Part shown: one piece after another, positions 17,292 to 32,146 of the stretch | Position numbering within the stretch: the stretch's first letter is position 1 | Layout of the letters: every line of letters starts with the position of its first letter | Origin: Saonia flava | Lineage (GTDB): Bacteria; Bacteroidota; Bacteroidia; Flavobacteriales; Flavobacteriaceae | NCBI RefSeq assembly: GCF_011927795.1 | Contig: NZ_JAATJJ010000001.1 | Span: 620,001-684,000, forward strand | Direction of reading: 5' to 3' | Length of the DNA stretch: 64,000 nucleotides | Notes under the pieces: model-generated | What the model was told of the DNA's origin: nothing | Seen by the model: the letters and a program-made list of their open reading frames with translations, nothing else | Databases searched by the model: none | Translations under genes and position numbers: made by a program

Positions 17292-17383
17292 AAGTTATTT
17301 ATTTTCTTTTTGCAAATGATTTTCATAACTTTAATACCATATTGTACTTACCCCTATATATAATAGTATTAACAAAATTAAGT

Positions 17384-17848
17384 ATGGCAAATTTTAACTT
17401 AAAAGTAAACGGAAAAAACGAGCAAGTAGACGTTGATCCCGCTACACCTATGTTATGGGTGTTACGGGATCACCTTAAATTAGTGGGCACAAAATATGGC
17501 TGCGGTATCGCCCAATGTGGTGCGTGTACAATTCACCTTGGCGATAATGCTGTGCGCTCCTGTCAATTACCTGTTTCTGCTGTTAATGACCAAGACATTA
17601 CCACTATTGAAGGACTATCTGAAAATGGTGACCACCCTGTCCAAAAAGCTTGGATGGAAGTAGATGTGTACCAATGCGGTTATTGCCAAGCTGGTCAAAT
17701 AATGAATGCAAGTGCATTTCTAAAAAACAATCCAAATCCTACGGATGAGGAAATTGAAGGGGCTATGAACGGTAATATTTGCCGGTGTGGTACCTATACA
17801 CGAATTAAGAAAGCAATTAAAGAAGCTGCCAGTTCTGAAAACGCATAA
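17384..17848 (+). CDS. iorA: Isoquinoline 1-oxidoreductase-type [2Fe-2S] subunit
   Basis: 154 residues from ATG 17384; a longer frame from 17342 lacks conserved sequence. The first [2Fe-2S] cluster site is [15 protein letters not shown] with a later Cys in VRSCQLP. The second is [12 protein letters not shown] with [11 protein letters not shown]. This is the small subunit of a two-gene xanthine-oxidase-like molybdenum hydroxylase that lacks a FAD subunit, so electrons probably pass to a cytochrome or quinone. It precedes its large subunit by 31 bases. Confidence 0.92.
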
Positions 17849-17879
17849 AAATGGTTAGGTGCATCTTAAAACAAAAATC

Positions 17880-20075
17880 ATGACAAAGATAAAAACACAA
17901 TATAATCGTCGCTCATTTATTAAGGTCTCTGCGGCCGCTAGTGGTGGCATGCTTATAGGATTTAGTTGGCTCAATGGATGTAAGCCAAATACTTCATTGG
18001 ATACAGGAGTGGCGATTCCAAAAGAATGGTTCGATATTAATGGATATATAAAAATTGGGGACACAGGCATGGTCACAATCTTTTCCCCCAATCCCGAAAT
18101 TGGTCAGAACGTAAAAACTTCAATGCCCATGATTGTAGCGGAAGAACTTGATGTTCCGTGGGAAAATGTGGTGGTTGAACAAGCACCACTGAATACAGGT
18201 TTTTACCAAAACCAGTTTGCAGGAGGCAGTTTATCAATTCGTTTAAGTTGGAATGCCCTTAGAATGGCCGGTGCAACAGGTAGAAGAATGTTGTTGGAAG
18301 CAGCAGCAAAAGAATGGGGTGTAGAAGTTTCCAGTTTAACAGCCAGCGAAGGAGTAATAAAGGAAAATAGTGGAGAGCGTAGTGTTTCTTATGGTGAAAT
18401 AGCCTCGAAAGCAGTGGGCATTGAAATACCCGAAGAGGTTGACCTTAAAGACCTCAAAGACTTTAAGTTAATTGGAACCAGTAAAAAAAATGTAGATGGA
18501 AGGAAAATTGTCACAGGCGAACCCTTATATGGTTTAGATTTTCATAGGGAGGGTATGAAGCTGGCTATGATACAACATCCACCAGCATTTGGCATGACCG
18601 TTAAAGACTTTAACAAGGAGGAAATAAAAAACATGCCAGGAGTTACAGATGCCTTCATTATTGATACAACAATTGACGAACCCGGTTGGTTCGATGAGAA
18701 AGGTTTTAACCATTTAATTGCCATTGTAGGGGATTCTACTTGGGAACTTATGCAAGCCAAAAAGGCCATTAAAGCAGAATGGGAAACTGTAAGCGAACCT
18801 GAAAATTCTGATATTCATATAGAAAAATTGGAAAAAGCCCTTGTATCTGGTGAAGTAGAGGAAAGTAGAAAGGATGGTAATGCTGATGCGGCTTTTAAGA
18901 AAGCGGCTAAGATTATTGAGAGAACTTACAGTGCGCCATTTATTGCGCACAATACTTTGGAGCCAATGAATTTCTTTGCCAATGTTACCGAAAATTCAGC
19001 GGAACTAGTTGGGCCTACCCAAACACCGGAATCTCTCGAGGGCTCGGTTTCCAAATTGTTGAACATGCCCCTTGAAAATATTACCGTTGACATGACTAGA
19101 ATTGGTGGAGGGTTTGGTAGAAGGCTCTATGTACATTTTGGGGTTGAAGCCGCGGCCATTTCTAAAAAAATAGGTGGTCCGGTAAAGCTGATTTATACAA
19201 GAGAAGACGACATGAGTCAAGGCACCTATAGGCCTACTTACCGTTCAACATACAAAGCAGGTCTGGATGAAAATAACAATCTAATAGCGTTTTCAGTTAA
19301 GGGCGCAGGGTTACCAGAGGGTCCCGTATTCCCAAACCGTTTCCCTGCTGGAACGGTAGAAAATTATTCTGCCGAAAAAATTAAAGCAGAAACCAATGTA
19401 ACCACAGGAGCATGGCGGGCACCAAGATCTAATTTTACAGCAGGTGCTGAGCAATCATTTCTTGATGAAGTAGCAGAAGCAGCAGGCAAAGATCCTATAG
19501 ATTTCCGTTTGGAATTATTTAATCGGGCCATAAATGACCCTATTGGAGAAAAACATGATTATGAAGCAGAAAGATATGCTGGAGTGCTCAAATTAGTAAA
19601 GGAAAAAGCCAATTGGGGAGAAACAAAACCAGGTGTTCATCGCGGAGTAGCAGCCTATTTTTGTCATGCTAGTTATGTTGCAGAGGTTATGGACATAATT
19701 ATGGAGAATGGGCAACCCATAGTGGATAAAGTTTGGTGTGCAGTAGATTGCGGTATTGTTGTGAATAAAGATGGTGCAAAAAATATAATCGAAGGCGGGG
19801 TGGTTGATGGCATTGGACATGCCATGTATAGTCAGTTGACCTTTGAAAATGGAACAGCCAAAGAATCAAATTTTGATAAATACCAATTAATTCGCCATTC
19901 ACAAGCACCTAAAAAAATAGAGGTTTTCTTTGTTGAAAATGAAATAGACCCAACTGGATTGGGGGAACCAGGACTTCCTCCAGCTATGGCTGCGTTGGCA
20001 AATGCCTTATATAAGGCAACTGGCCAACGACACTACCATCAGCCATTTTCAACTGAGAGAAAATTGGTTGGATAA
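17880..20075 (+). CDS. iorB: Isoquinoline 1-oxidoreductase-type molybdopterin subunit
   Basis: 731 residues from ATG 17880. The N-terminus has a twin-arginine signal, NRRSFIKVSAAASGG, and a Cys soon after (WLNGC), so it is probably exported folded and perhaps lipid-anchored. Molybdenum cofactor motifs include AGGSLSIRLSWNALRMAGATGR, TRIGGGFGRRLY, GAWRAPRSNFTAGAEQSFLDE, and GLGEPGLPPAMAALANAL with the conserved active-site Glu. The substrate is an N-heterocycle or aldehyde by family, not provable here. No maturation gene (XdhC-like) is adjacent. Confidence 0.9.
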   Translation: MTKIKTQYNRRSFIKVSAAASGGMLIGFSWLNGCKPNTSLDTGVAIPKEWFDINGYIKIGDTGMVTIFSPNPEIGQNVKTSMPMIVAEELDVPWENVVVEQAPLNTGFYQNQFAGGSLSIRLSWNALRMAGATGRRMLLEAAAKEWGVEVSSLTASEGVIKENSGERSVSYGEIASKAVGIEIPEEVDLKDLKDFKLIGTSKKNVDGRKIVTGEPLYGLDFHREGMKLAMIQHPPAFGMTVKDFNKEEIKNMPGVTDAFIIDTTIDEPGWFDEKGFNHLIAIVGDSTWELMQAKKAIKAEWETVSEPENSDIHIEKLEKALVSGEVEESRKDGNADAAFKKAAKIIERTYSAPFIAHNTLEPMNFFANVTENSAELVGPTQTPESLEGSVSKLLNMPLENITVDMTRIGGGFGRRLYVHFGVEAAAISKKIGGPVKLIYTREDDMSQGTYRPTYRSTYKAGLDENNNLIAFSVKGAGLPEGPVFPNRFPAGTVENYSAEKIKAETNVTTGAWRAPRSNFTAGAEQSFLDEVAEAAGKDPIDFRLELFNRAINDPIGEKHDYEAERYAGVLKLVKEKANWGETKPGVHRGVAAYFCHASYVAEVMDIIMENGQPIVDKVWCAVDCGIVVNKDGAKNIIEGGVVDGIGHAMYSQLTFENGTAKESNFDKYQLIRHSQAPKKIEVFFVENEIDPTGLGEPGLPPAMAALANALYKATGQRHYHQPFSTERKLVG

Positions 20076-22403: not shown

Positions 22404-23519
22404 CTATAGATTAAGCCATTGCTTAAATTCAGCAGCCTTATTTTTACTTATTATTATATCTACTTCAGAATTTGGGTTTACAAGAATTTTAAGTTGGTTG
22501 TTACCGTATTTCACAATCTTATCTATTGCTGATATTGCAATTATGAACTGCCTATTGGCCCTGTAAAAAAAACTACTGTCCAGATTAGAAAATAATTCAT
22601 CCAAACTTACATTTGTTGTAGAGCGTTTTCCATCGAAACAAACTACGTAAGTAATTGTATTTTCGGTATATATATGGGCAATATCTTCTGTTGCTATTGG
22701 TAAAAGTTCATTTCTAACATAGGTAAGAATTCTTTTTTTGTTCTTATCGTTGGTATTGTCTGTAATTTTTTCGGGTTGAGTTTCACTAACTTTTTGTTGA
22801 TAATCACCAACGGCCCTATTTAATTTGGAAAGATTTATCACCTCATCTTCCAGTTTTTGATTCTTTAGTTCTAATCGCTTTTCATAAGCACTGCCAATAA
22901 GCCTCACGGTAATCACAGAAGAAAGAATAATGATGAAACCCATTATCAGCAATATGTTATAAAATTTATTTCTGAGGGCATCTATCTGAGATGATATCTT
23001 ACTGGTATTTGCGTGAGCAGCTATAATCCAATCAGAATTAGCTACTGGGTACAAATAGATTACTTCTGATTCCTGTTCGGAATCCTCAAAATTACGCACT
23101 CCCCCGGCCTCTTGTTTGTTTTGTAACAAATCATAGAAGTCTTCAGAGGACAAATCATCTGTCACAGAAGAAACAAAAGATTGGTTTGGGCTTACCAACT
23201 GCCCCACTCTTTTAATATCCGGATGGCACACCTCTTTCCCAGACCAATCAAAGACAGAGACAAAGCCGGTTTCTAGATTGGTACTTTCAATGCTTTGCTG
23301 TACATTTTGTATTACGATCTCTTTGTTGATTCCATTTTCCAATTCGTACCCAACTAAATTGGCAATTTCCTTTGCTTCCCGCTTACTGGATTCCAATTGG
23401 GTTTCCAGCAATTGATTTGCGCTTGCCTTTACAAAAAACTGTATAGCAATACTGGCTATCACAATAAAAATGATGGATATGGATAAAAAAGTAAAAAAGT
23501 AAAGACGGTCCTTTCTCAT
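22404..23519 (-). CDS. Membrane-anchored sensor with LytTR DNA-binding domain
   Basis: 371 residues with the order TM1 (about 8-29), extracytoplasmic Cache-like sensor (about 35-180, with SVFDWSGKEVCHPD and YPVANSDWIIAAHANTS), TM2 (about 188-210), coiled coil (about 212-248), and C-terminal LytTR domain (about 270-371, with YVVCFDGKRSTTNVSLDELFSNL and FFYRANRQFIIAISAIDKIVKYGNNQLKI). It is a one-component transmembrane transcription factor: no receiver or kinase is present. It is divergent from the cytochrome lipoprotein gene, and the shared direct-repeat element lies between them, so this is the likely regulator of both downstream modules. Confidence 0.9.
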   Translation of the reverse strand: MRKDRLYFFTFLSISIIFIVIASIAIQFFVKASANQLLETQLESSKREAKEIANLVGYELENGINKEIVIQNVQQSIESTNLETGFVSVFDWSGKEVCHPDIKRVGQLVSPNQSFVSSVTDDLSSEDFYDLLQNKQEAGGVRNFEDSEQESEVIYLYPVANSDWIIAAHANTSKISSQIDALRNKFYNILLIMGFIIILSSVITVRLIGSAYEKRLELKNQKLEDEVINLSKLNRAVGDYQQKVSETQPEKITDNTNDKNKKRILTYVRNELLPIATEDIAHIYTENTITYVVCFDGKRSTTNVSLDELFSNLDSSFFYRANRQFIIAISAIDKIVKYGNNQLKILVNPNSEVDIIISKNKAAEFKQWLNL

Positions 23520-23629
23520 ATAAATGGTCTGGCTGACATTTTTTGATGTCTAAGATAGGGATTTGATAAAAACTAAATGTATGATATAGATAGTCCTAAC
23601 AATTTTAACCAATTAGCCACTTAAAAATA

Positions 23630-23702
23630 TTCCCTTTTAAACCCCATTTTTCCCTTTCACGAACATTTTGTCTTTAGGAGCCCCAGTTATATGGTTGTTT
23701 TG
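23630..23702 (+). promoter_or_regulatory. Direct-repeat promoter element of module A
   Basis: Two 10-bp direct repeats, TTCCCTTTTA (23630) and TTCCCTTTCA (23650), start exactly 20 bases apart. They are followed by TTTTGTC at 23666 and GTTGTTTTG at 23694. TTTG at 23667-23670 and TATGGTTG at 23690 are separated by 19 bases, close to the Bacteroidota TTTG-N19-TAnnTTTG promoter. The same parts with the same spacing occur at 28052-28124. Paired direct repeats about two helical turns apart suit a LytTR protein. Confidence 0.7.
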
Positions 23703-23742
23703 GGAAAAATAATAGAACATCAATAATCACAAAAAAACAACT

Positions 23743-24135
23743 ATGACAAACAAAACGAAAATGTTATGTGCTTTACTGTCCTTCATTCTATTGGCATGCA
23801 CCAATGACAGCGAAAGCGACCTGTTACTGGAACCTGAAACCAACTCTGAACAAGAAACTGAAGAACCCAGTGGAATCATTACTTACAACGCAAACATAAA
23901 AAGTATAATAGATGGCAATTGTTTGGGGTGCCATTCCAATCCACCTCGTAACGGAGCACCTTTCTCTTTAACAACCTATGAGCAAGTAAAGACAAGAGCG
24001 GACAATGGTTCTTTACTAAGTTCTCTATCCAAACAAACAAGTGAAAATGGCTCTATGCCTCCAGCCAATAGGTTACCACAATCAACTATTGATCTTATTG
24101 AACAATGGATACAGGACGGAACATTAGAAAACTAA
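23743..24135 (+). CDS. c-type cytochrome lipoprotein (module A)
   Basis: 130 residues. A lipoprotein signal ends at Cys19 (FILLAC), followed by an acidic linker. One haem c site, CLGCH (Cys60, Cys63, His64), lies in IKSIIDGNCLGCHSNPP. A plausible axial Met105 occurs in ENGSMPPANRLPQ, and the domain ends with an IDLIEQWIQDG helix, typical of small mono-haem domains in Bacteroidota. It should be an envelope electron carrier. It leads the first YceI/OB/DUF5777 module and sits directly behind the direct-repeat element. Confidence 0.88.
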   Translation: MTNKTKMLCALLSFILLACTNDSESDLLLEPETNSEQETEEPSGIITYNANIKSIIDGNCLGCHSNPPRNGAPFSLTTYEQVKTRADNGSLLSSLSKQTSENGSMPPANRLPQSTIDLIEQWIQDGTLEN

Positions 24136-24159
24136 TTAAACAGTAAAAAACAAAACATT

Positions 24160-24723
24160 ATGAAAAACAAAAAAAATAAACTAGTAGCACTTTTGGTGGT
24201 TGGTCTTATTGGAATAAATATGGTCAGTGCGCAAGAAAAATATATTGATAAAAATGGAACCTTGGTTTTTGAGGCTTCAGAAAAACTATTTGAAGAAGTT
24301 AAGGCAGAAAATACATCGGTAACGGCAATTTTAGACACTAAAACGGGAGAAATTGCAGCCTTGGGTCTCATGAAAGGCTTTCGTTTTAAAAACTCTTTAA
24401 TGGAGGAACACTTCAACGAAAATTATATTGAATCTGAAACCTATCCAAAAGCAATTTTCAAGGGCAACTTAATAGATTTTGAGTTTAAAAGCCTTAGTGA
24501 AATTGAGCAAAAACTAACAACAACCGGAATATTGGAATTACATGGAAAAGAGAAAGAAATCTCTACAATCCTAACGATTAAAAAAATTGACAAGAGTATC
24601 TCCATACAAGGGAATTTCGCAGTCACTCCCGAAGATTTCGACATAGAGATACCAAAAATTGTAAAAAATAAAATTGCAAGGGAAGTTCTGGTACAACTCA
24701 CATTTAATCTTATAGAAAAATGA
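24160..24723 (+). CDS. YceI-family periplasmic lipocalin-like protein (module A)
   Basis: 187 residues with a signal peptide (about 8-25, ending VSAQ). YceI-type beta-barrel signatures include FEASEKLFEEVKAEN, FRFKNSLMEEHFNENYIESE, YPKAIFKGNLIDF, GILELHGKEKEI and a C-terminal amphipathic strand. YceI proteins bind isoprenoid or lipid-like ligands in the periplasm. The sequence aligns closely with the second YceI gene at 30718 (shared EHFNExYIES). It overlaps the OB-fold gene by four bases (ATGA). Confidence 0.88.
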   Translation: MKNKKNKLVALLVVGLIGINMVSAQEKYIDKNGTLVFEASEKLFEEVKAENTSVTAILDTKTGEIAALGLMKGFRFKNSLMEEHFNENYIESETYPKAIFKGNLIDFEFKSLSEIEQKLTTTGILELHGKEKEISTILTIKKIDKSISIQGNFAVTPEDFDIEIPKIVKNKIAREVLVQLTFNLIEK

Positions 24724-25118
24724 GCAAGAAAAAATATTACCTACTAGTTTCTCTAATAGCATTACTCTTTTTTCTGGCCTTATTGGTAAAACAATACTTA
24801 TATGGTGAGCATAGAAACATAGCCAGTGAAAAAGCTACTATGGAAATCTCCGCTACGGAATTAGAGTCAAGGTTTGCATCTAACCAAAGTTTGACTTCAA
24901 AAAACCTCTTGGATAAAGTTATTGCAGTCCACGGTAAAATTAATGCAATTGAAATCAACAGTGTCATTATAGATAATAAAGTACAAGCAAATTTATTAAA
25001 TGGAAACATGGACAATATCGCTGTTGGTGATATAATTACGGTTAAAGGTAGGTGCATAGGCTATGACGACCTACTTGAAATAGTGAAAATTGACCAAGCA
25101 ACACAAATACTCAACTAA
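24720..25118 (+). CDS. Membrane-anchored OB-fold (tRNA_anti-like) protein (module A)
   Basis: 132 residues. One N-terminal membrane segment (about 7-24) is followed by an extracytoplasmic domain resembling the tRNA_anti-like OB fold: NLLDKVIAVHGKINAIEI, VQANLLN, IAVGDIITVKGRCIGYDDLLEIVKI. Despite the name, no tRNA role is implied for these anchored forms. The gene is translationally coupled to yceI by ATGA overlap and lies 15 bases before the DUF5777 gene. Its counterpart in module B is at 30285. Confidence 0.8.
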   Translation: MSKKKYYLLVSLIALLFFLALLVKQYLYGEHRNIASEKATMEISATELESRFASNQSLTSKNLLDKVIAVHGKINAIEINSVIIDNKVQANLLNGNMDNIAVGDIITVKGRCIGYDDLLEIVKIDQATQILN

Positions 25119-25133
25119 TAAAAATATAGAAAT

Positions 25134-25979
25134 ATGAAAATCTTAAATATTCTCCTCCTTATTTTTCCCGTCCTACTCTTTTCACAAGATGACCTGTTTT
25201 CGGAAATAGACACCGACGTTGCCGACGAGTTTGAAACTGCAGCTTTCAAAGGTTTAAAGATTGTGAATTTTGAATCTACCAAGATGATATCAAATAAAGA
25301 GCTTTACTTTGTTGTATCGCACAGGTTTGGTTCTGTAAAAACAGGATTCAAAGACTTTTTTGGCCTTGACCAAGCTGTTACCCGTCTCAATTTTATATAT
25401 GGGGTTTCAGATGGAATAAATATTGGAGTCTCTAGAAGCTCGTTTCTAAAGACTTATGAAACTTCGATTAAGTTGCGATTACTACGTCAAAAAAATGGCG
25501 GTTCACCATTCACGATTGTATCATTCAATACGCTACTAATAAATTCTGCTTTGGAAAAAGAGAACCTACCTGGATTGGAATTTGACCATCGACTAGGATA
25601 CACAGTGCAATTATTAATCTCCAGAAAGGTAAATAAAAACTTCTCATTGGAATTAATCCCTACTTATTTTCATGATAACCTGGTACAATTGGATGAGCAG
25701 GAAAATTCACAATACTCCCTAGGTCTTGGGGGCAGACATAAACTTTCTAAAAGATGGTCCTTAAATGCAGATTACGGCTATCATTTGAATAGAGCGGAAA
25801 ACTCCCCATTTAAAAATCCTTTTTCAATTGGTTTTGACCTTGAAACCGGTGGCCATGTGTTTCAATTACATTTTACAAATGCTCAACCCATGAATACCAA
25901 TGGTTTTCTTGGTCAGGCAATTGGAGATTGGGGAGAAGGTGATTTTTTCTTTGGTTTCAACGTATCACGGGTATTTTAA
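25134..25979 (+). CDS. DUF5777 outer-membrane beta-barrel protein (module A)
   Basis: 281 residues with a signal peptide ending near LFSQ (residue 18). Conserved DUF5777-type segments are ELYFVVSHRFGSV, RLNFIYGVSDGINIGVSRSSF, KLRLLRQKNGGSPFTIVSF, LISRKVNKNFSLELIPTYFH and SLGLGGRHKLSKRWSLNADYGY. Alternating amphipathic strands and a terminal aromatic (VSRVF) fit an outer-membrane barrel. Its function is not established. It is paralogous to 31247-32146, sharing the LxRQxxGGSPF motif. Confidence 0.85.
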   Translation: MKILNILLLIFPVLLFSQDDLFSEIDTDVADEFETAAFKGLKIVNFESTKMISNKELYFVVSHRFGSVKTGFKDFFGLDQAVTRLNFIYGVSDGINIGVSRSSFLKTYETSIKLRLLRQKNGGSPFTIVSFNTLLINSALEKENLPGLEFDHRLGYTVQLLISRKVNKNFSLELIPTYFHDNLVQLDEQENSQYSLGLGGRHKLSKRWSLNADYGYHLNRAENSPFKNPFSIGFDLETGGHVFQLHFTNAQPMNTNGFLGQAIGDWGEGDFFFGFNVSRVF

Positions 25980-25989
25980 ATCTAAAACC

Positions 25990-26247
25990 ATGAATTCAGG
26001 ATTCGCCACAGTTCACGTTCAAAACGCATTCTGTCAAAAATGTTCGTCAACTATCAAAAAAGAGCTTTTAAAAATTATGGATATTACAAATGTATATCTA
26101 TACCCCACGGACTCTCTTGTGGTATTCAATTTTGTAAAGGCCAATGAGCTTTCAACCGCGTTAAATATTCTAACAGATTTAGGCTATCCACCAGAAGGAG
26201 AAAGAATAAATTCCAAAAAACCATCTATTACAGCATGTAACTGTTAA
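25990..26247 (+). CDS. HMA-like metal-binding protein
   Basis: 85 residues from ATG 25990; a longer frame from 25900 runs inside the DUF5777 gene and is rejected. The ferredoxin-like HMA fold is suggested by FATVHVQNAFCQKCSSTIKKELLKI with the CxxC metal site, and by YPTDSLVVFNF and LSTALNILTDLGYPP. The last residues contain a second CNC pair. No signal peptide is seen, so it is probably a cytoplasmic metal (copper-type) chaperone. It closes module A before a strong terminator; module B has no equivalent. Confidence 0.75.
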   Translation: MNSGFATVHVQNAFCQKCSSTIKKELLKIMDITNVYLYPTDSLVVFNFVKANELSTALNILTDLGYPPEGERINSKKPSITACNC

Positions 26248-26250
26248 TCT

Positions 26251-26314
26251 TTTTCTTTCTTGAAAGAAAATTTTAACCAACCTCCAATTGAATAATCTAT
26301 TGGAGGTTTTTTTT
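26251..26314. terminator. Tandem hairpins ending module A
   Basis: A 9-bp AT-rich stem (TTTTCTTTC / GAAAGAAAA) is followed by TTTT. A second stem (AACCTCCAAT / ATTGGAGGTT) is followed by a run of at least seven T. The second is a strong intrinsic terminator for the plus strand and separates module A from the convergent DoxX gene. Confidence 0.85.
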
Positions 26315-26383
26315 TGCATATAGATTTTATAAGTATGGTTAAAAGTCATTTTCAGGGTAATAAATTCTAAATGTATACCATAG

Positions 26384-26794
26384 CTATTCCTTATCATTTT
26401 TTTTCCTTGGTTTAGCTATACTTCGAAGTTTCTCATTTCTTAGCCAAATACTTAACCAAACAAGTATTCCAAAAACAATTGGAAACAAAATATTAATGAT
26501 GGGATCGTTATGGATGATATGAGTGGCTATTGCCCCTCCCAACCATGCTGTAAGTAATAAGCAACCTAAAAATGTCGTTTGTGGAATTGCATATAACACG
26601 GTTGAAATCAATAATACTATTCCTAAATAAATAACTGAAGCTTTTGGGTAACCCATTTCAATGGCACCACTAACTGCCATATCAGTCTGTAAAAGATTAT
26701 TAAAAGCCCCCACTAAGAGCATTATGGCTATTAAGCTTTGTAAAATATAAGAAATCCACAAAGTTCCTTTGGATACTTTTCTACTTGTTTTCAT
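26384..26794 (-). CDS. DoxX-like membrane protein
   Basis: 136 residues with four predicted membrane helices (about 14-32, 50-68, 76-92, 99-117). The pattern WISYILQSLIAIMLLVGAFNNL, then AIEMGYPKASVIYLGIVLLISTVLYAIPQTTFLGCLLLTAWLGGAIATHI, is typical of the DoxX-like family. Members often accompany SRPBCC and ArsR genes; the function is unresolved. It overlaps the SRPBCC gene by 14 bases. Confidence 0.88.
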   Translation of the reverse strand: MKTSRKVSKGTLWISYILQSLIAIMLLVGAFNNLLQTDMAVSGAIEMGYPKASVIYLGIVLLISTVLYAIPQTTFLGCLLLTAWLGGAIATHIIHNDPIINILFPIVFGILVWLSIWLRNEKLRSIAKPRKKNDKE

Positions 26795-27299
26795 TTATAT
26801 TTTTGTATTTAACATATTCATCTAAATTCTTAAGGGCCATGGTAAATCCTTCTTTAAAGCCCATTTTAATTACCTTTTCAAGGTCGGAAAGACTTTCATA
26901 AGAGGCCACAATCGAAACTAGTGTTTTATTAGCTTTTTCTTCACTAAATGTATTTGTCCACTGAGTTCGTGGCATTTCTTCGTTCAGAACTCCATTTTCA
27001 TCACAAAAGGCATCTAAACCAGTAAAACTACTTTTGGGCTTAATTTGCAAATAATTGTTTTTGCACCAATGTTTTTCGTTTTCAGGACTTACCATATAAT
27101 ACAACCACATACCTCCTTCTCTAAAATCCATGGATTTGGTTACCGTTTTATACGGTTTTGGTGCCCACCATTGGTCTAAGATTTCGGGTTTTGTCCAAGC
27201 GTCCCATACTAAATCAAGATTTGCAGCAAATTCTCGCTTTACATTAACGGTGTTGTTTTCTTTATTAACCTTAAATTTGAATAATAAATTAGCGCTCAT
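26781..27299 (-). CDS. SRPBCC/AHSA1-domain protein
   Basis: 172 residues of the START-like AHSA1 family: VNVKREFAANLDLVWDAWTKPEILDQWWAPKPY, then DFREGGMWLYYMVSPENEKHW, FTGLDAFCDENG, and a C-terminal KMGFKEGFTMALKNLDEYV helix. The fold binds hydrophobic ligands. ArsR-SRPBCC-DoxX clusters are common, with the ArsR repressor controlling the others. A decayed SRPBCC copy lies between this gene and the ArsR gene. Confidence 0.9.
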   Translation of the reverse strand: MSANLLFKFKVNKENNTVNVKREFAANLDLVWDAWTKPEILDQWWAPKPYKTVTKSMDFREGGMWLYYMVSPENEKHWCKNNYLQIKPKSSFTGLDAFCDENGVLNEEMPRTQWTNTFSEEKANKTLVSIVASYESLSDLEKVIKMGFKEGFTMALKNLDEYVKYKNINENK

Positions 27300-27309
27300 A
27301 TTTCACATT

Positions 27310-27563
27310 TTTTTGTTACACATTTCTTAAGCCCATCAACGTTTTACTTTAGGCCTTCTTCAACTTTGTATTCTTTAATTATAATTTCCTGCATTGGCAT
27401 GGTCAATTCCATAGACCACTCTACTAAACAAGCTTTTCATGCATAGCAAGGGTACTCTTTTTGGCCCCTACCAATTGAAAATATGTTTTGGATTGGTCCA
27501 AATCTCCCTCACAATCATAATGGAAGCATTAAATGTTCGAGTCATTTGTATTTCCTTGTTCAT
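27310..27563 (-). pseudogene. Decayed SRPBCC/AHSA1 gene
   Basis: From ATG 27563 the frame reads MNKEIQMTRTFNASIMIVRE then IWTNPKHIFNW, stop, GPKR. This is the start of an SRPBCC protein (compare xTRxFNAPxxxVWxAWTxPxHxxxWWGP) with the second W of WW turned into a stop. A further match to the family C-terminus (IIIKEYKVEEGLK, stop) follows after a large internal deletion near 27350-27400. About 100 of the expected 140-160 codons are represented. It sits directly behind the ArsR gene. Confidence 0.75.
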
Positions 27564-27572
27564 GTTATTTGC

Positions 27573-27899
27573 TTATTTCCCCTCTTTTTGAATTTTATTT
27601 AAGTAATTGTCAAGATTGCTAAACCTATCTTCCCAACGTCCACGTAATTGATTTACCCAAATATCAATTTCATTTATTTTTTCAATTTTAATTTGATAGT
27701 AAATCTCTCGCCCCTTTTTATTTGATTCAATGAGTTCACATTCGTTTAAAATTTGAATATGTTTTGAAATTGTAGGTCTGGATGCATCAAAATTATTTGC
27801 AATTGCTCCTGCTGTCATTGTCTGAGATGCTAATAATGCTAAAATTGATCGTCTGGTCGGATCTGCAATCGCTTGATAAATATCTCTCCTTAATTTCAT
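27573..27899 (-). CDS. ArsR-family transcriptional repressor
   Basis: 108 residues of winged-helix ArsR type: YQAIADPTRRSILALLASQTMTAGAIANNF, recognition helix region SRPTISKHIQILNECELIES, wing KKGREIYYQI, and a C-terminal WVNQLRGRWEDRFSNLDNYL helix. There are no metal-binding Cys pairs, which fits the SRPBCC-associated ArsR subgroup over metal sensors. It is first in the minus-strand cluster with the SRPBCC pseudogene, SRPBCC and DoxX genes, and probably represses it. Confidence 0.9.
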   Translation of the reverse strand: MKLRRDIYQAIADPTRRSILALLASQTMTAGAIANNFDASRPTISKHIQILNECELIESNKKGREIYYQIKIEKINEIDIWVNQLRGRWEDRFSNLDNYLNKIQKEGK

Positions 27900-28051
27900 T
27901 ACGAAGTCATTTGACTACAAATATATATGAAGTTATTTAGCTACACAATTTTTTTTAAGTACACTAGTGGTAATCATTATTCTAAGTAAACCCACTCCTA
28001 TAGAAATAATGGAAATACCATGGGGATTCCCCAAAATTTCATTCCATTTTA

Positions 28052-28124
28052 TTCCCTTTCAAGGGTCATTTTTCCCCTTCACACACCTTTTGTCCATATA
28101 AACGCCCAAGAAGCAGTTGTTTTG
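28052..28124 (+). promoter_or_regulatory. Direct-repeat promoter element of module B
   Basis: TTCCCTTTCA (28052) and TTCCCCTTCA (28072) are spaced 20 bases start to start, then come TTTTGTC at 28088 and GTTGTTTTG at 28116. All four offsets (0, 20, 36, 64) equal those of the element at 23630, while the bases between differ. Such spacing conservation indicates the same regulator at both promoters; the nearby LytTR protein is the best candidate. Confidence 0.7.
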
Positions 28125-28163
28125 ATCAACATTAATATTTAATCCTTTTAAAATTCAAACAAA

Positions 28164-30131
28164 ATGAAAAAGCTTTTATTACTATTCGTCCTCTCATTAA
28201 TTGTCATTAGCTGTTCTGATGATTCCGATGATACCTACAACAACCCAAATCCTAATCCAGATTCCGAAACTGAAACCGAAACCGAAGTTGGTAACTCGGT
28301 TGGTCTTAGGTCAGATGCAACTTTTGGTGAGGTATTAACAAACTCTGAAGGAAAAACATTGTATTTCTTTGGAAAAGATGCCAAAGGAGCATCTAACTGT
28401 AGCGGTGGATGTGCCGATGTGTGGCCCATTTTTTTTACCGATGACTTAACCCTGGATTCAGGTCTAAGTGCTTCTGACTTTGGGACCATTACAAGAGAAG
28501 ATGGTGAACAACAAACTACTTACAAAGGGTGGCCATTGTACCTTTTTACAAACGATGCTGCCACAACCGATATAAATGGTGATAATACCAATAATTTCTT
28601 TGTTGCAAAACCAGATTATTCTATAATGATAACCGTTGCCCAATTGGTAGGAAGAGATTCCAGTGGAGGTGAAACCAATCTTACAAGTGAATTTATCGCT
28701 GGCGATGAAGAAACACTTTATATAACAGATGAAAAAGGAAACACATTGTACATTTTCATAAATGATAAGAAGAACCAAAACAATTTTACTGCTGAAGATT
28801 TTTCAAATAATGGGGTATGGCCAATATTCAATACCACTATTGGGAGCTTGCCAAGTATTTTAAGTGCTGATGATTTTGGAACCATTGATGTTTTTGGAGA
28901 ATCCCAATTAACCTACAAAGGATGGCCTCTATACTATTTTGGTCAAGATCAGGAACGGGGTGACAACTTTGGGGTTGGTTTTCCAGCTGCTGGAATATGG
29001 CCAATCATAAATCCAGACACAGAAGAAGCTCCAGAACCAGACCCAAATGCCGTAAGAATTTCTGAAAATACAACTTTTGGAAATGTAATGACAAACGCAG
29101 AAGGCATGACCTTATATTTCTTTGGAAAAGATGCCAAAGGAACATCTAACTGTAGCGGTGGTTGTTCTGGTGTATGGCCAACTTTCTTTGCTGAGAACCT
29201 TACTTTGGATGCAGGATTGAATGCAGACGACTTTGCAACCATTACCAGAGAAGATGGTGCACAACAAACTACTTACAAAGGATGGCCACTATACTTATTT
29301 GCCAATGACGCAAGCTCTGGAGATATAAACGGAGACAACGCCAATAATTTCTTTGTTGCAAAACCAGATTATTCTTTAATGATTAGTGTTGCCCAATTGG
29401 TAGGTAGGGACTCTGACGGAAACGAAACCAACCTTACAGGTGAATACATTCCTGGTGATGAGGAAACTCTCTATGTTACAGATGATGAAGGGAACACTCT
29501 TTACACTTTTATTGGAGACAAAAAGAACCAAAACAACTTTACAGCAGATGATTTTTCCAATAATGGTGTATGGCCCATATTCCATACAAGTATAGAAGGG
29601 CTGCCTAGTATATTGGACAGTAGTGATTTTGGAACCATTGATGTGTTTGGAGAGTCACAGTTAACCTACAAAGGATGGCCTTTATACTATTTTGGTCAAG
29701 ATCAGGAACGTGGTGATAATTATGGAGTTGGATTTCCTGCTGCTGGAGTTTGGCCAATAATCAACCCAGACATAGAGGAGGCTCCAGAACCAGAAGACAC
29801 ATCAAGTGTTGCGGCTACCTATGAGGTATCTAATAATGGGGCCACGGCCTATCTATTTAGCGGTAATGGATTAACAGATGCAAGTAACCCTGACTTTACG
29901 TTAAAAAGAGGGGAAACATATGAATTCAATGTAAATACTCCTGGGCATCCATTTTTGGTTAAGTCTGTTCAAGGTACAGGTACTGCAAACACATTTGATG
30001 ATGGTGTTACCAATAATGGTGCATCAACAGGAACTATAAGCTTTACAGTTCCTAATGACGCTCCAAATACATTATTTTATAATTGTGAGTTCCATGGTCA
30101 AATGACTGGAACCATAACAATAGTTGATTGA
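28164..30131 (+). CDS. Repeat lipoprotein with C-terminal cupredoxin domain (module B)
   Basis: 655 residues. The lipoprotein signal ends at Cys17 (LIVISC). Two near-identical blocks of about 250 residues (about 46-296 and 297-548) carry paired units of the COG4315 'secreted repeat' type, each with TLYFFGKDAKGxSNCSGGC and LTYKGWPLYYFGQDQERGD. Residues about 549-655 are cupredoxin-like with GHPFLV, FYNCEFHGQM: His, Cys, His and Met at copper-ligand positions. It should be a surface or periplasmic redox or metal protein. It leads module B and has its own terminator. Confidence 0.85.
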   Translation: MKKLLLLFVLSLIVISCSDDSDDTYNNPNPNPDSETETETEVGNSVGLRSDATFGEVLTNSEGKTLYFFGKDAKGASNCSGGCADVWPIFFTDDLTLDSGLSASDFGTITREDGEQQTTYKGWPLYLFTNDAATTDINGDNTNNFFVAKPDYSIMITVAQLVGRDSSGGETNLTSEFIAGDEETLYITDEKGNTLYIFINDKKNQNNFTAEDFSNNGVWPIFNTTIGSLPSILSADDFGTIDVFGESQLTYKGWPLYYFGQDQERGDNFGVGFPAAGIWPIINPDTEEAPEPDPNAVRISENTTFGNVMTNAEGMTLYFFGKDAKGTSNCSGGCSGVWPTFFAENLTLDAGLNADDFATITREDGAQQTTYKGWPLYLFANDASSGDINGDNANNFFVAKPDYSLMISVAQLVGRDSDGNETNLTGEYIPGDEETLYVTDDEGNTLYTFIGDKKNQNNFTADDFSNNGVWPIFHTSIEGLPSILDSSDFGTIDVFGESQLTYKGWPLYYFGQDQERGDNYGVGFPAAGVWPIINPDIEEAPEPEDTSSVAATYEVSNNGATAYLFSGNGLTDASNPDFTLKRGETYEFNVNTPGHPFLVKSVQGTGTANTFDDGVTNNGASTGTISFTVPNDAPNTLFYNCEFHGQMTGTITIVD

Positions 30132-30152
30132 GGAAGTTGAGTATTGGTGAAG

Positions 30153-30188
30153 AAACCTTGGGAAATTGCTATGCTTCCCAAGGTTTTA
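30153..30188 (+). terminator. Intrinsic terminator behind the repeat lipoprotein gene
   Basis: A 12-bp stem (AAACCTTGGGAA / TTCCCAAGGTTT) with a ten-base loop ends in TTTT, 21 bases after the stop. It suggests the lipoprotein is more abundant than the downstream module B genes, which may be read through or have their own promoter in 30190-30284. Confidence 0.8.
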
Positions 30189-30284
30189 CCATTAACAATT
30201 GGAAATAACATTTTCTATAATGCTTTTGTGCTAACTTTAGTGCAGTATAACCGCTTATTACTTGCTATAAACTTTATTTTAAAT

Positions 30285-30725
30285 ATGAATAGAATTACCA
30301 AAAGAATAATAATTGTTTTAACAATCTTAATACTTGGGGTGATTTTTTATTGGTATTTATCCTATGATTCACATATCAATATATTGGATAAAAAGACAGA
30401 AGTGCATACAAATGCAGAAAATTTGATGTCTTCATTTATTTTAAACAAAGAACAAGCAAATTCCGATTACAAGGAGAAAATAGTTGAAATTAAAGGTATT
30501 GTAACAAAAGTTAGTTATTTAAATAAAAAATGTACTGTATTTTTAGAAGCTGGAAAAAATAAAGAAGAAGGCTATATAATATGTGATATGCAAACCAACC
30601 AATTACACAATGTTCAACAAATAAAAAATGGAGATTCTGTTCTAATCAAAGGTATTTTTAAAGGATTCCTTATGGATGGAATCATGTTAAATTGTGTACT
30701 ACTCAACACTTATATTGATGAATAA
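30285..30725 (+). CDS. Membrane-anchored OB-fold protein (module B)
   Basis: 146 residues from ATG 30285. A longer frame from 30144 would include the terminator hairpin and is rejected. One membrane segment (about 7-25) is followed by the OB-like domain: DYKEKIVEIKGIVTKVSYLN, CTVFLEA, IICDMQTNQ, IKNGDSVLIKGIFKGFLMDGIMLNCVLL. It is the counterpart of 24720-25118 though more diverged. It overlaps the following YceI gene by eight bases. Confidence 0.75.
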   Translation: MNRITKRIIIVLTILILGVIFYWYLSYDSHINILDKKTEVHTNAENLMSSFILNKEQANSDYKEKIVEIKGIVTKVSYLNKKCTVFLEAGKNKEEGYIICDMQTNQLHNVQQIKNGDSVLIKGIFKGFLMDGIMLNCVLLNTYIDE

Positions 30726-31266
30726 ACTAATTAAGTTTCTTTTTGTTTTTTCATTTTTCACCGGAATTGGGCAGAACTCGGAACAAATAATTGCTCGACA
30801 GGGACAAGTATCCTTCTTTTCCTATACATCCGTTGAAAATATTAAAGCAGAGAACAACCAAGCGCTTAGTATTATTGATTTTTCCAATAATAAAATTGCT
30901 GCCAGTATGCTAATGAATGCTTTTATTTTTGAAAAAGCATTGATGAAGGAGCATTTTAACGAAAGTTATATCGAATCGGACATTCATCCAAAAGCCACTT
31001 TTGAAGGTGAAATCATTGATTTTGATGCTTCAATAAATGGTATACAAACGAAAATGGTACAAGGAATATTTACATTACATGGCATATCGAAAGAGTTGGA
31101 AATAAAAACCGATATTGATAGTTCTAGTGGAAAGTTTGTTCTAACTGGCACTTTTGAAACTTTTGTAAAAGATTATGATATTAAAGTTCCGCCATTACTG
31201 GCCGGTAACATTGCCAAAACAATTTCAGTAACCTTTAGATTTGAATATGAGCCTTATGAGAAATAG
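30718..31266 (+). CDS. YceI-family periplasmic lipocalin-like protein (module B)
   Basis: 182 residues from ATG 30718, with a signal peptide (about 3-20, ending GIGQ). Shared YceI features are VSFFSYTSVENIKAEN, LMNAFIFEKALMKEHFNESYIES, HPKATFEGEIIDFD and GIFTLHGISKELEI. It is clearly paralogous to the module A protein. Gene order differs: here OB-fold precedes YceI. Its 3' end overlaps the DUF5777 gene by about 20 bases, so the three genes are translationally linked. Confidence 0.87.
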   Translation: MNKLIKFLFVFSFFTGIGQNSEQIIARQGQVSFFSYTSVENIKAENNQALSIIDFSNNKIAASMLMNAFIFEKALMKEHFNESYIESDIHPKATFEGEIIDFDASINGIQTKMVQGIFTLHGISKELEIKTDIDSSSGKFVLTGTFETFVKDYDIKVPPLLAGNIAKTISVTFRFEYEPYEK

Positions 31267-32146
31267 AAAATTACTTTTTGTAGTATTCCTAATTACTGGT
31301 TTATATACTCATATAAATGCACAGGATGATTTGTTGGGAATCTTAGATCAAGAACAACCCAATATAGTTGATTATACTTCGGCAACCTTTAAGATGACCA
31401 GAATATCTTATGGTCACTCAATTGAAACCAGAAAGAAAGGAATCCTCGAAATTTTTGTTGCAAACAGGTTTTGGAACATTCCTGACAGCAAAGCCCAGAG
31501 TTTTGCGGCTGATCGTCTAGCTGCCAGAATAGCTTTGGAGTATGGTGTTACAGACCGCTTTTCCATGGGGTTTGGAGGTTCTAATTTTGATGGTTTATTT
31601 GATGGGTACCTAAAATATAAACTAGTTAGACAGCGTAAGGGGGGCTCCCCTTTCAGTATCACCTTATTGCAAGGAGGTAGTTACAATAGCAATGCTTTTC
31701 CTGATGCAACCATTCAAGATGATTTTTCCAATAGATTATCCTTTACTACCCAAGCTTTAATAGCTAGAAAGATATCATCTAATTTCTCTCTCCAGGTTGC
31801 CCCATCATTTATTCATAAGGGTATGGTTCCATCCCCTATTGATCCAAAAAATGTTTTTGCCGTAGGTTTTGGGGGCAGGTATAAATTAGGGGGGCATGTA
31901 TCTGTTGTATCAGAATATTATTATGTTACCAATCCTTTGGAATCTGTAGACACATACGGTCCATTTTCATTAGGTGTAAATTGGGAGGTTGGGGATTTAA
32001 TGCTCCAGTTTATGCTTACCAATACCAGAAATATGGTGGAGGACACCTTTATAGTGCAAACCCCTAACAATTTTAATTTTAGGGATCCTAACCTAAACTT
32101 TGGATTTAATGCGACCTATGTTCTACATTTAAAAAGAAAAAAGTAA
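31247..32146 (+). CDS. DUF5777 outer-membrane beta-barrel protein (module B)
   Basis: 299 residues from ATG 31247; ATG 31256 is an equally plausible start. The signal peptide ends near HINAQ. Barrel motifs include LEIFVANRFWNIPD, RIALEYGVTDRFSMGFGGSNFDG, KYKLVRQRKGGSPFSITLL, LIARKISSNFSLQVAPSFIH and AVGFGGRYKLGGHVSVVSEYYY. It is paralogous to the module A barrel with the same strand order. Pairing with YceI in both modules suggests the lipocalin and barrel act together. Confidence 0.85.
   Translation: MSLMRNRKLLFVVFLITGLYTHINAQDDLLGILDQEQPNIVDYTSATFKMTRISYGHSIETRKKGILEIFVANRFWNIPDSKAQSFAADRLAARIALEYGVTDRFSMGFGGSNFDGLFDGYLKYKLVRQRKGGSPFSITLLQGGSYNSNAFPDATIQDDFSNRLSFTTQALIARKISSNFSLQVAPSFIHKGMVPSPIDPKNVFAVGFGGRYKLGGHVSVVSEYYYVTNPLESVDTYGPFSLGVNWEVGDLMLQFMLTNTRNMVEDTFIVQTPNNFNFRDPNLNFGFNATYVLHLKRKK

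Follow-up and report, generated by a model that had tools for sequence, protein, structure and literature searches.

What do a membrane LytTR regulator and two paralogous sets of envelope genes do together in Saonia flava (Flavobacteriaceae)? They lie close to one another in the stretch analysed here (the window: 64,000 nucleotides of contig NZ_JAATJJ010000001.1, positions 620,001 to 684,000, part of a 3.8-Mb genome). Module A comprises a mono-haem cytochrome c lipoprotein, YceI-A, OB-A, DUF5777-A, and a heavy-metal-associated (HMA) protein; module B comprises a COG4315/SCO0930-type lipoprotein, OB-B, YceI-B, and DUF5777-B. An earlier note on this DNA had taken them for a candidate redox system with a haem-based and a copper-based branch. 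By gene content, the locus is of a general kind, cytochrome plus YceI plus barrel. We give an even chance to the fuller reading, that it encodes a co-regulated outer-membrane redox cassette in which a haem-linked module is paired with a copper-linked one. Reading frames were defined by length alone, and the window proteins were annotated on the basis of Pfam and NCBIfam profile cut-offs; every named gene lies where the earlier note had placed it.

Recurrence of the gene set in Bacteroidota

We found DUF5777 in 115 of the 296 Bacteroidota genomes sampled and in 65 of 140 genera, and in none of 14 named control genomes. Of the DUF5777 places, 120 were fetched with their flanks; about 16 further strong ones and the nine lowest-scoring rows were left aside. 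Three of the 120 (L062, L092, and L123) were dropped because the DUF5777 gene was not called, and 117 loci were tallied. In 102 of the 117, a redox carrier is found no more than four genes away from DUF5777: a cytochrome of the window's family or an allied cluster in 91 (including one fusion), a Rieske protein without a cytochrome in 10, and COG4315 alone in 1. YceI is equally close in 97. This adjacency is not due to chance, since genomes hold only 0 to 9 YceI genes each (53 of 61 sampled genomes have any). Among 80 named loci, cytochromes are present in 73 and YceI in 74; this sample is biased, being the best 80 of at least 585 and thus the most query-like, and the named loci most similar to the window's DUF5777-A are from Flavobacteriaceae. 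The order cytochrome, YceI, barrel is frequent, and many loci are divergent or rearranged. The co-occurrence on which the earlier note's reading depends is thus recurrent.

Pfam searches with a single member supplied the name of each partner cluster: Rieske, DOMON (below the cut-off), EB_dh, 4Fe-4S, NrfD, and cytochrome c. Eight loci without a nearby YceI gene (L118, L120, L124, L125, L128, L133, L134, and L136) carry EB_dh-type haem lipoproteins and/or 4Fe-4S and NrfD proteins, which suggests a quinol-to-outer-membrane chain. Five of the 20 YceI-less loci, all five with a carrier, have an NrfD-type membrane subunit within four genes, an observation in favour of the redox reading. Elsewhere (L052, L067, L075, L078, L081, and L082), the cytochrome and/or YceI has as neighbours a Crp/Fnr-like gene, named by reading, and genes of the DOMON and ankyrin types, each named by Pfam from one member. 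FecI/FecR/TonB-receptor-like genes, also named by reading, adjoin OB and DUF5777 in L046, L053, L059, L068, and similar loci.

Paired modules and a candidate shared operator

Both modules are compact. In module A, 24 bases separate the cytochrome and YceI genes, YceI and OB overlap by 4, and 15 lie between OB and DUF5777; in module B, the lipoprotein gene is followed after 153 bases by OB, which overlaps YceI by 8, and YceI overlaps DUF5777 by 26. The claimed paralogy of the YceI and DUF5777 pairs held up, at 34% and 30% identity, respectively; the OB pair is 19% identical. Beyond the window, we found both modules together in nine loci (L158, L159, L161, L162, L163, L165, L181, L182, and L238), in the order LytTR (divergent), cytochrome, YceI, OB, DUF5777, [HMA], lipoprotein, OB, YceI, DUF5777. 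The LytTR gene is divergent from module A in all nine, reading as two frames in L182; HMA is missing only from L182, and no module B lipoprotein was called in L159. L173 has module A alone, with neither a LytTR gene nor an operator.

The LytTR gene (22404..23519, minus strand) encodes a transmembrane protein that is a candidate regulator of both modules. Its LytTR domain scores 55.8 bits against a cut-off of 22.6 (E 5.5e-15), and a Cache-like region scores 23.9 bits with Cache_3-Cache_2, below the cut-off of 27.7. A 10-bp direct repeat with a 20-bp period and a 10-bp spacer (TTCCCYTTYR-N10-TTCCCYTTYR) precedes module A (23630..23659, plus strand) and module B (28052..28081, plus strand) with 0 mismatches in each; as these loci were the source of the pattern, the perfect window matches are partly circular. 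Allowing up to two mismatches, these are the only two matches in the genome; a reversed-pattern control gave 1 and 1 match genome-wide. The repeat pair turns up in 14 of the 20 intergenic regions, whereas mononucleotide shuffles gave 0.275. Repeats 20 bp apart are found in all 10 LytTR-cytochrome gaps (weakly in L159, with 3 mismatches), and the pair precedes module B in the window, L158, L162, L165, and L238, as well as in L182, where it carries 3 mismatches and reaches the called start. A promoter 3' of the operator was sought by eye, and none was resolved.

Other genomes extend this picture. In the same-genus genome G296, the two best of four pattern matches are at the two modules. In G088, which has its modules on different contigs, the operator is found at module B (2 mismatches) and at the module A locus L137 (3 mismatches). 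There it also precedes a TonB_C gene and a lamin-tail lipoprotein gene (L252 and L258), both away from the modules; the latter fits, because a lamin-tail lipoprotein fills the COG4315-cupredoxin slot in L158 and L162. The pattern matches examined comprise four of the seven from G088, two of the four from G296, and none of the six from G134. We rejected an accidental neighbourhood of modules A and B: nine further loci have both modules and LytTR, and the operator accompanies a module A and a module B even on the separate contigs of G088.

LytTR sites are described as paired 9-bp repeats spaced 10 to 13 bp apart in the part of PMC11347149 consulted, and the repeats found here have the geometry of a LytTR-regulated promoter. 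The same part presents CoxC, a transmembrane repressor, which resembles the window protein in joining a transmembrane sensor to a LytTR domain and in using direct repeats at two-helical-turn spacing. CoxC differs in its MHYT sensor and its target genes (PMC11347149); the window protein is Cache-like and a putative binder of the repeats found here. The earlier note named independent expression of the modules as an outcome contrary to its reading; at the level of sequence, both carry the same candidate operator near the LytTR gene.

Cytochrome lipoprotein and its fusions with the barrel

The first gene of module A (23743..24135, plus strand) encodes a lipoprotein of 130 amino acids whose lipobox and single CLGCH were read directly and whose relatives adjoin DUF5777. 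All of its Pfam matches are below the cut-off, the best being Haem_bd (E 0.0017). An iterated profile gave a set of 211 proteins, some of them larger; motif shares were taken from the 175 of at most 175 amino acids. Class-I mono-haem cytochromes c are characterized by the Cys, Cys, and His of the haem site, a distal Met, and a C-terminal aromatic residue, and the small homologues have this feature set: the haem-site residues are kept in 99, 98, and 99%, respectively, the Met of Met-Pro in 97%, and a C-terminal Trp in 98%. In these cytochromes, from loci L038 to L238, the haem site is CX2CH in 143, CX4CH in 29, and neither in 3. A strict CX2CH rule, which found a haem lipoprotein in 65 of 116 loci, was rejected; CX4CH sites are present and were counted anew.

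Two single reading frames join the cytochrome to the barrel. The first (L154:7989-9254; 421 amino acids) has an N-terminal CX4CH cytochrome (CAQAGCH), matched only by our own profile and the CX4CH pattern, followed by DUF5777 (152.6 bits, residues 171 to 418). The second (L240:155-1477; 440 amino acids), from another family of the phylum, has CTAVGCH, again CX4CH. The two are 55% identical over residues 53 to 419, and both keep equivalents of histidines 63 and 241 of DUF5777-A. Fusions are rare, given one among the 117 loci and one further genome in a 117-genome search; the barrel of G302 is 47% like the fusion barrel. Because the cytochrome is N-terminal in the fusions, and barrel termini are periplasmic in the account given by the part of PMC8406198 consulted, we tentatively place it at the periplasmic mouth.

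These fusions invite comparison with Cyc2, which likewise couples one c-type haem domain to an outer-membrane barrel in a cytochrome-first single frame. Cyc2, as far as the consulted part of PMC8406198 describes it, has 16 predicted strands, compared with 12 in the DUF5777-A model; the window's cytochrome and barrel are separate genes with a YceI partner, and no iron-oxidizer context is shown. The Cyc2 motif AXPXFAR[QK][TY] is absent from all 211 proteins of the cytochrome set and from both fusions. We therefore rejected Cyc2 membership, the motif, the strand number, and a fusion in the window all being at variance with it. In its working, the cassette would resemble a split cytochrome-porin, distinct from Cyc2. 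MtrCAB likewise pairs an outer-membrane barrel with c-type cytochrome; in the consulted part of the same source, it has a 26-strand barrel with an inserted decahaem protein, in contrast to the mono-haem cytochrome and 12-strand model here (PMC8406198).

The DUF5777 barrel and its histidine/arginine set

DUF5777-A (25134..25979, plus strand; PF19089, 299.3 bits versus 23.1) was modelled with AlphaFold2 on an 84-sequence alignment. The model has 12 strands and a mean predicted local distance difference test (pLDDT) score of 89, and by this model DUF5777-A is an outer-membrane barrel. With VIA-align, its closest folds are FapF (Z 18.6, root mean square deviation [rmsd] 3.7 over 210) and KdgM (Z 18.1, rmsd 2.1 over 166), followed by the COG4313 channel (Z 17.7, rmsd 3.8 over 210) and NanC (Z 17.2, rmsd 2.9 over 186). 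This shared fold says nothing on function.

We compared 209 barrels longer than 200 amino acids, drawn from the phylum set and the 80 named loci as well as from L238 and the window. His63 and His241 are both present in 198, both missing from 11, and never found singly. Arg101, Thr238, Phe243, Arg279, and several glycines are conserved among the 198 and differ in the same 11. The histidine-less barrels are the module B clade (support 1.0), to which the window's DUF5777-B belongs (31241..32146, plus strand; 265.8 bits versus 23.1; without the two His and two Arg). The neighbouring YceI and OB proteins likewise form one clade each (support 0.98 and 0.83), which argues that module B travelled as a unit. 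On a Kyte-Doolittle scale with Tyr and Trp raised to 2, His63, Arg101, His241, and Arg279 each lie on whichever parity of the strand is the more hydrophobic, suggesting that they face lipid. It is a tentative idea, and in our view an unlikely one, that this lipid-facing wall binds menaquinone or haem through the two near-invariant His and two Arg, fed by YceI and the mono-haem cytochrome, so that a quinone- or haem-based electron relay would lie in the outer membrane itself and not in the lumen.

Alternatively, DUF5777 could be a passive pore for copper, iron, or a redox-active solute, the carriers only shifting its oxidation state and HMA handling the metal inside. Narrow substrate channels (KdgM, NanC, COG4313) are among the nearest folds, the HMA gene (25990..26247, plus strand, with an in-frame start at 25990; Pfam HMA E 9.5e-06, over the cut-off) recurs in 8 of the 9 other two-module loci, and module B has a copper-ligand pattern, described below. 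However, the only HMA locus in the phylum set is the window's own, the cupredoxin pattern is present in only 2 of 6 COG4315 proteins there, and the best-kept polar residues of the module A barrel appear lipid-facing and not lumenal. We consider a metal or small-solute channel unlikely.

YceI and OB proteins

YceI-A (24160..24723, plus strand; 42.2 bits versus 23.7) is a lipocalin-like protein without a lipobox; its paralogue YceI-B (30718..31266, plus strand; PF04264) scores 40.9 bits against the same cut-off. The YceI profile matches PDB 5ixh (E 0.002). A lipobox was found in 0 of 211 YceI proteins by a rule of our own, used without a background set and suggestive only. OB-A (24720..25118, plus strand), an N-terminal helix and OB fold (tRNA_anti-like, 31.5 bits, over the cut-off), was modelled at pLDDT 95; its best fold match is 3f1z, a lipoprotein (E 3.2e-05). 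OB-B (30285..30725, plus strand) scores 79.3 bits with tRNA_anti-like. The OB fold matches, 3f1z and tRNA-synthetase OB domains, point to no function. CcmE and CusF are not among the 50 fold matches listed, which is no proof of their absence. A Riemerella iron-limitation table contains one YceI gene, with a value of 1.1565 and no link to the cassette.

Other YceI lipocalins hold isoprenoids (octaprenyl compounds) or ubiquinone-8, according to the part of PMC9113575 consulted. This source also provides a second alternative. In Burkholderia, the YceI-family lipocalin BcnA is linked to the gene for the cytochrome b561 LcoA in a proposed peroxyl-radical detoxification system, and bcnA/lcoA mutants have raised lipid peroxidation (PMC9113575). 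The cassette could similarly defend the envelope, with YceI bringing a quinol antioxidant, the cytochrome re-reducing it, and the barrel presenting it to oxidized lipids. YceI and cytochrome are the shared core, the mutant phenotype is in favour, and the predicted lipid-facing polar site of the barrel would suit contact with lipids. The cassette differs in having a c-type lipoprotein instead of b561 and, in addition, an outer-membrane barrel; the consulted part of PMC9113575 describes BcnA/LcoA without a barrel partner. PF01292 (cytochrome b561 type) has no match in the genome at E up to 0.001, on which ground we rejected BcnA-LcoA membership, and no peroxidase domain is among the Pfam matches of the ten module proteins. 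A role in lipid-peroxidation defence appears to us improbable.

The module B lipoprotein

The lipoprotein gene of module B (28164..30131, plus strand) encodes a COG4315/SCO0930-type repeat protein with a cupredoxin-like C-terminal end. It passes the cut-offs of NCBIfam SCO0930_lipo (282.8 versus 275 bits) and of Lipoprotein_15 (257.5 versus 24.4 bits), the latter in 8 stretches. The cupredoxin end has no Pfam match over the cut-off, and a phmmer search of PDB with it returned azurins only, as weak matches (E 0.053 or worse). Type-1 copper cupredoxins use the ligand set H, C, H, M. The corresponding H...C..H..M pattern is present in all 7 COG4315 proteins of two-module loci and in 8 of 12 overall; one of the two phylum-set proteins that have it is the window's. 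Over the 10 two-module loci, the slot is filled by COG4315-cupredoxin in 7 and by a lamin-tail lipoprotein in 2 (L158 and L162), with none called in 1.

This variable slot bears on a third alternative, in which the system donates electrons to a surface enzyme and the COG4315-cupredoxin, lamin-tail, and EB_dh lipoproteins are its surface users. In Cellvibrio, where cytochrome and YceI-type domains have been put forward as electron suppliers of polysaccharide monooxygenases, Cbp2D joins a YceI-like X158 to a c-type X183 that reduces lytic polysaccharide monooxygenases (LPMOs) in vitro, and Cbp2D/E likewise couple YceI-like X158 with a mono-haem c domain (X183/X132) outside the cytoplasm, as set out in the part of PMC8981238 consulted. 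By the same suggestive lipobox rule, every one of the 12 COG4315 lipoproteins carries two or more acidic residues following the lipobox, also in favour. In Cbp2D/E, by contrast, the domains form one protein with a carbohydrate-binding module, and the consulted part of the source mentions no barrel (PMC8981238); moreover, no oxidase or LPMO is among the Pfam matches of the modules. Donation to a surface enzyme is, in our view, very unlikely.

The two-branch redox system of the earlier note stands in part. The recurrent carrier/YceI/barrel unit and the paralogous modules support it; the copper lipoprotein is confined to module B and is inconstant even there. New with respect to that note are the shared operator, the His/Arg difference between the two barrels, and three minus-strand genes between the modules.

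Proposed mechanism and evidence against it

We infer from the sequence that the membrane LytTR protein would answer an envelope signal and switch both modules on or off jointly. Lying at the barrel's periplasmic mouth, the cytochrome would take electrons from the respiratory chain and pass them to an outer-membrane partner. YceI would shuttle an isoprenoid from one membrane to the other, menaquinone being the likeliest; the module A barrel may hold the isoprenoid's head group, or haem, at the lipid-facing His63/His241/Arg101/Arg279 patch. Module B has no such patch and would serve the copper lipoprotein, whose probable place is the cell surface.

A number of observations weigh against this co-regulated redox cassette. 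YceI occurs without a recognized carrier in 12 of the 117 loci and a carrier without YceI in 17, and 3 loci have neither. At least two acidic residues follow the lipobox cysteine in 131 of 157 cytochromes; such residues would fit surface export and not a periplasmic cytochrome, the lipobox rule again being suggestive only. In the barrel, the loss of the histidines counts as one event and not eleven, because the barrels concerned form one clade. The parity contrast is weak for strand 11 (means of 0.59 versus 0.01), and Lys106, His180, Asn182, and Asn249 are also on lipid parity, nearer the strand ends. Counting along the strands would place His63 and Arg101 near mid-membrane and His241 and Arg279 near the periplasmic rim, perhaps as two sites. 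The window's DUF5777 barrels have no haem motif, and a 12-strand lumen would be too narrow for a cytochrome; hence there is no sign of a haem wire, and the barrel could be a passive channel.

Co-regulation meets similar difficulties. The operator before module B is absent from 4 of the 10 two-module loci (L159, L161, L163, and L181); in L161, L163, and L181, read-through is plausible, as the HMA-lipoprotein gap is just 46 to 85 bases. A second module A locus of G088 (L089) has no operator. In G134, L041 is a single module with a divergent LytTR gene beside COG4315 (without the copper pattern), cytochrome, OB, YceI, and DUF5777, and no operator is found there. Finally, 15 scattered matches with up to 3 mismatches occur elsewhere in 3.24 Mb of loci, where this arrangement is lacking.

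Neighboring genes

DoxX_2, AHSA1, and ArsR-like helix-turn-helix genes on the minus strand (26384-27899) separate module A from module B. We rejected them as members of the system; such genes lie between the modules in none of the nine other two-module loci. A xanthine-dehydrogenase-type enzyme is represented 2.3 kb before the LytTR gene by its 2Fe-2S and molybdopterin (MoCoBD) subunits (17342-20075), with a twin-arginine translocation (TAT) signal below the cut-off.

Implications

In the open-licence literature searched, no paper names DUF5777, and the gene set is described nowhere among the matches listed. Should the proposed reading hold, an outer-membrane redox unit based on a family that those papers do not name would be present in much of Bacteroidota (115 of the 296 genomes have DUF5777). 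Thanks to the natural fusion and the pair of histidines, the cassette is open to testing, and the two operators are a ready reporter pair. The cassette would also tie together the cargo and the client of YceI, the pairing of single-haem cytochromes with a barrel, and the action of quinones in the outer membrane.

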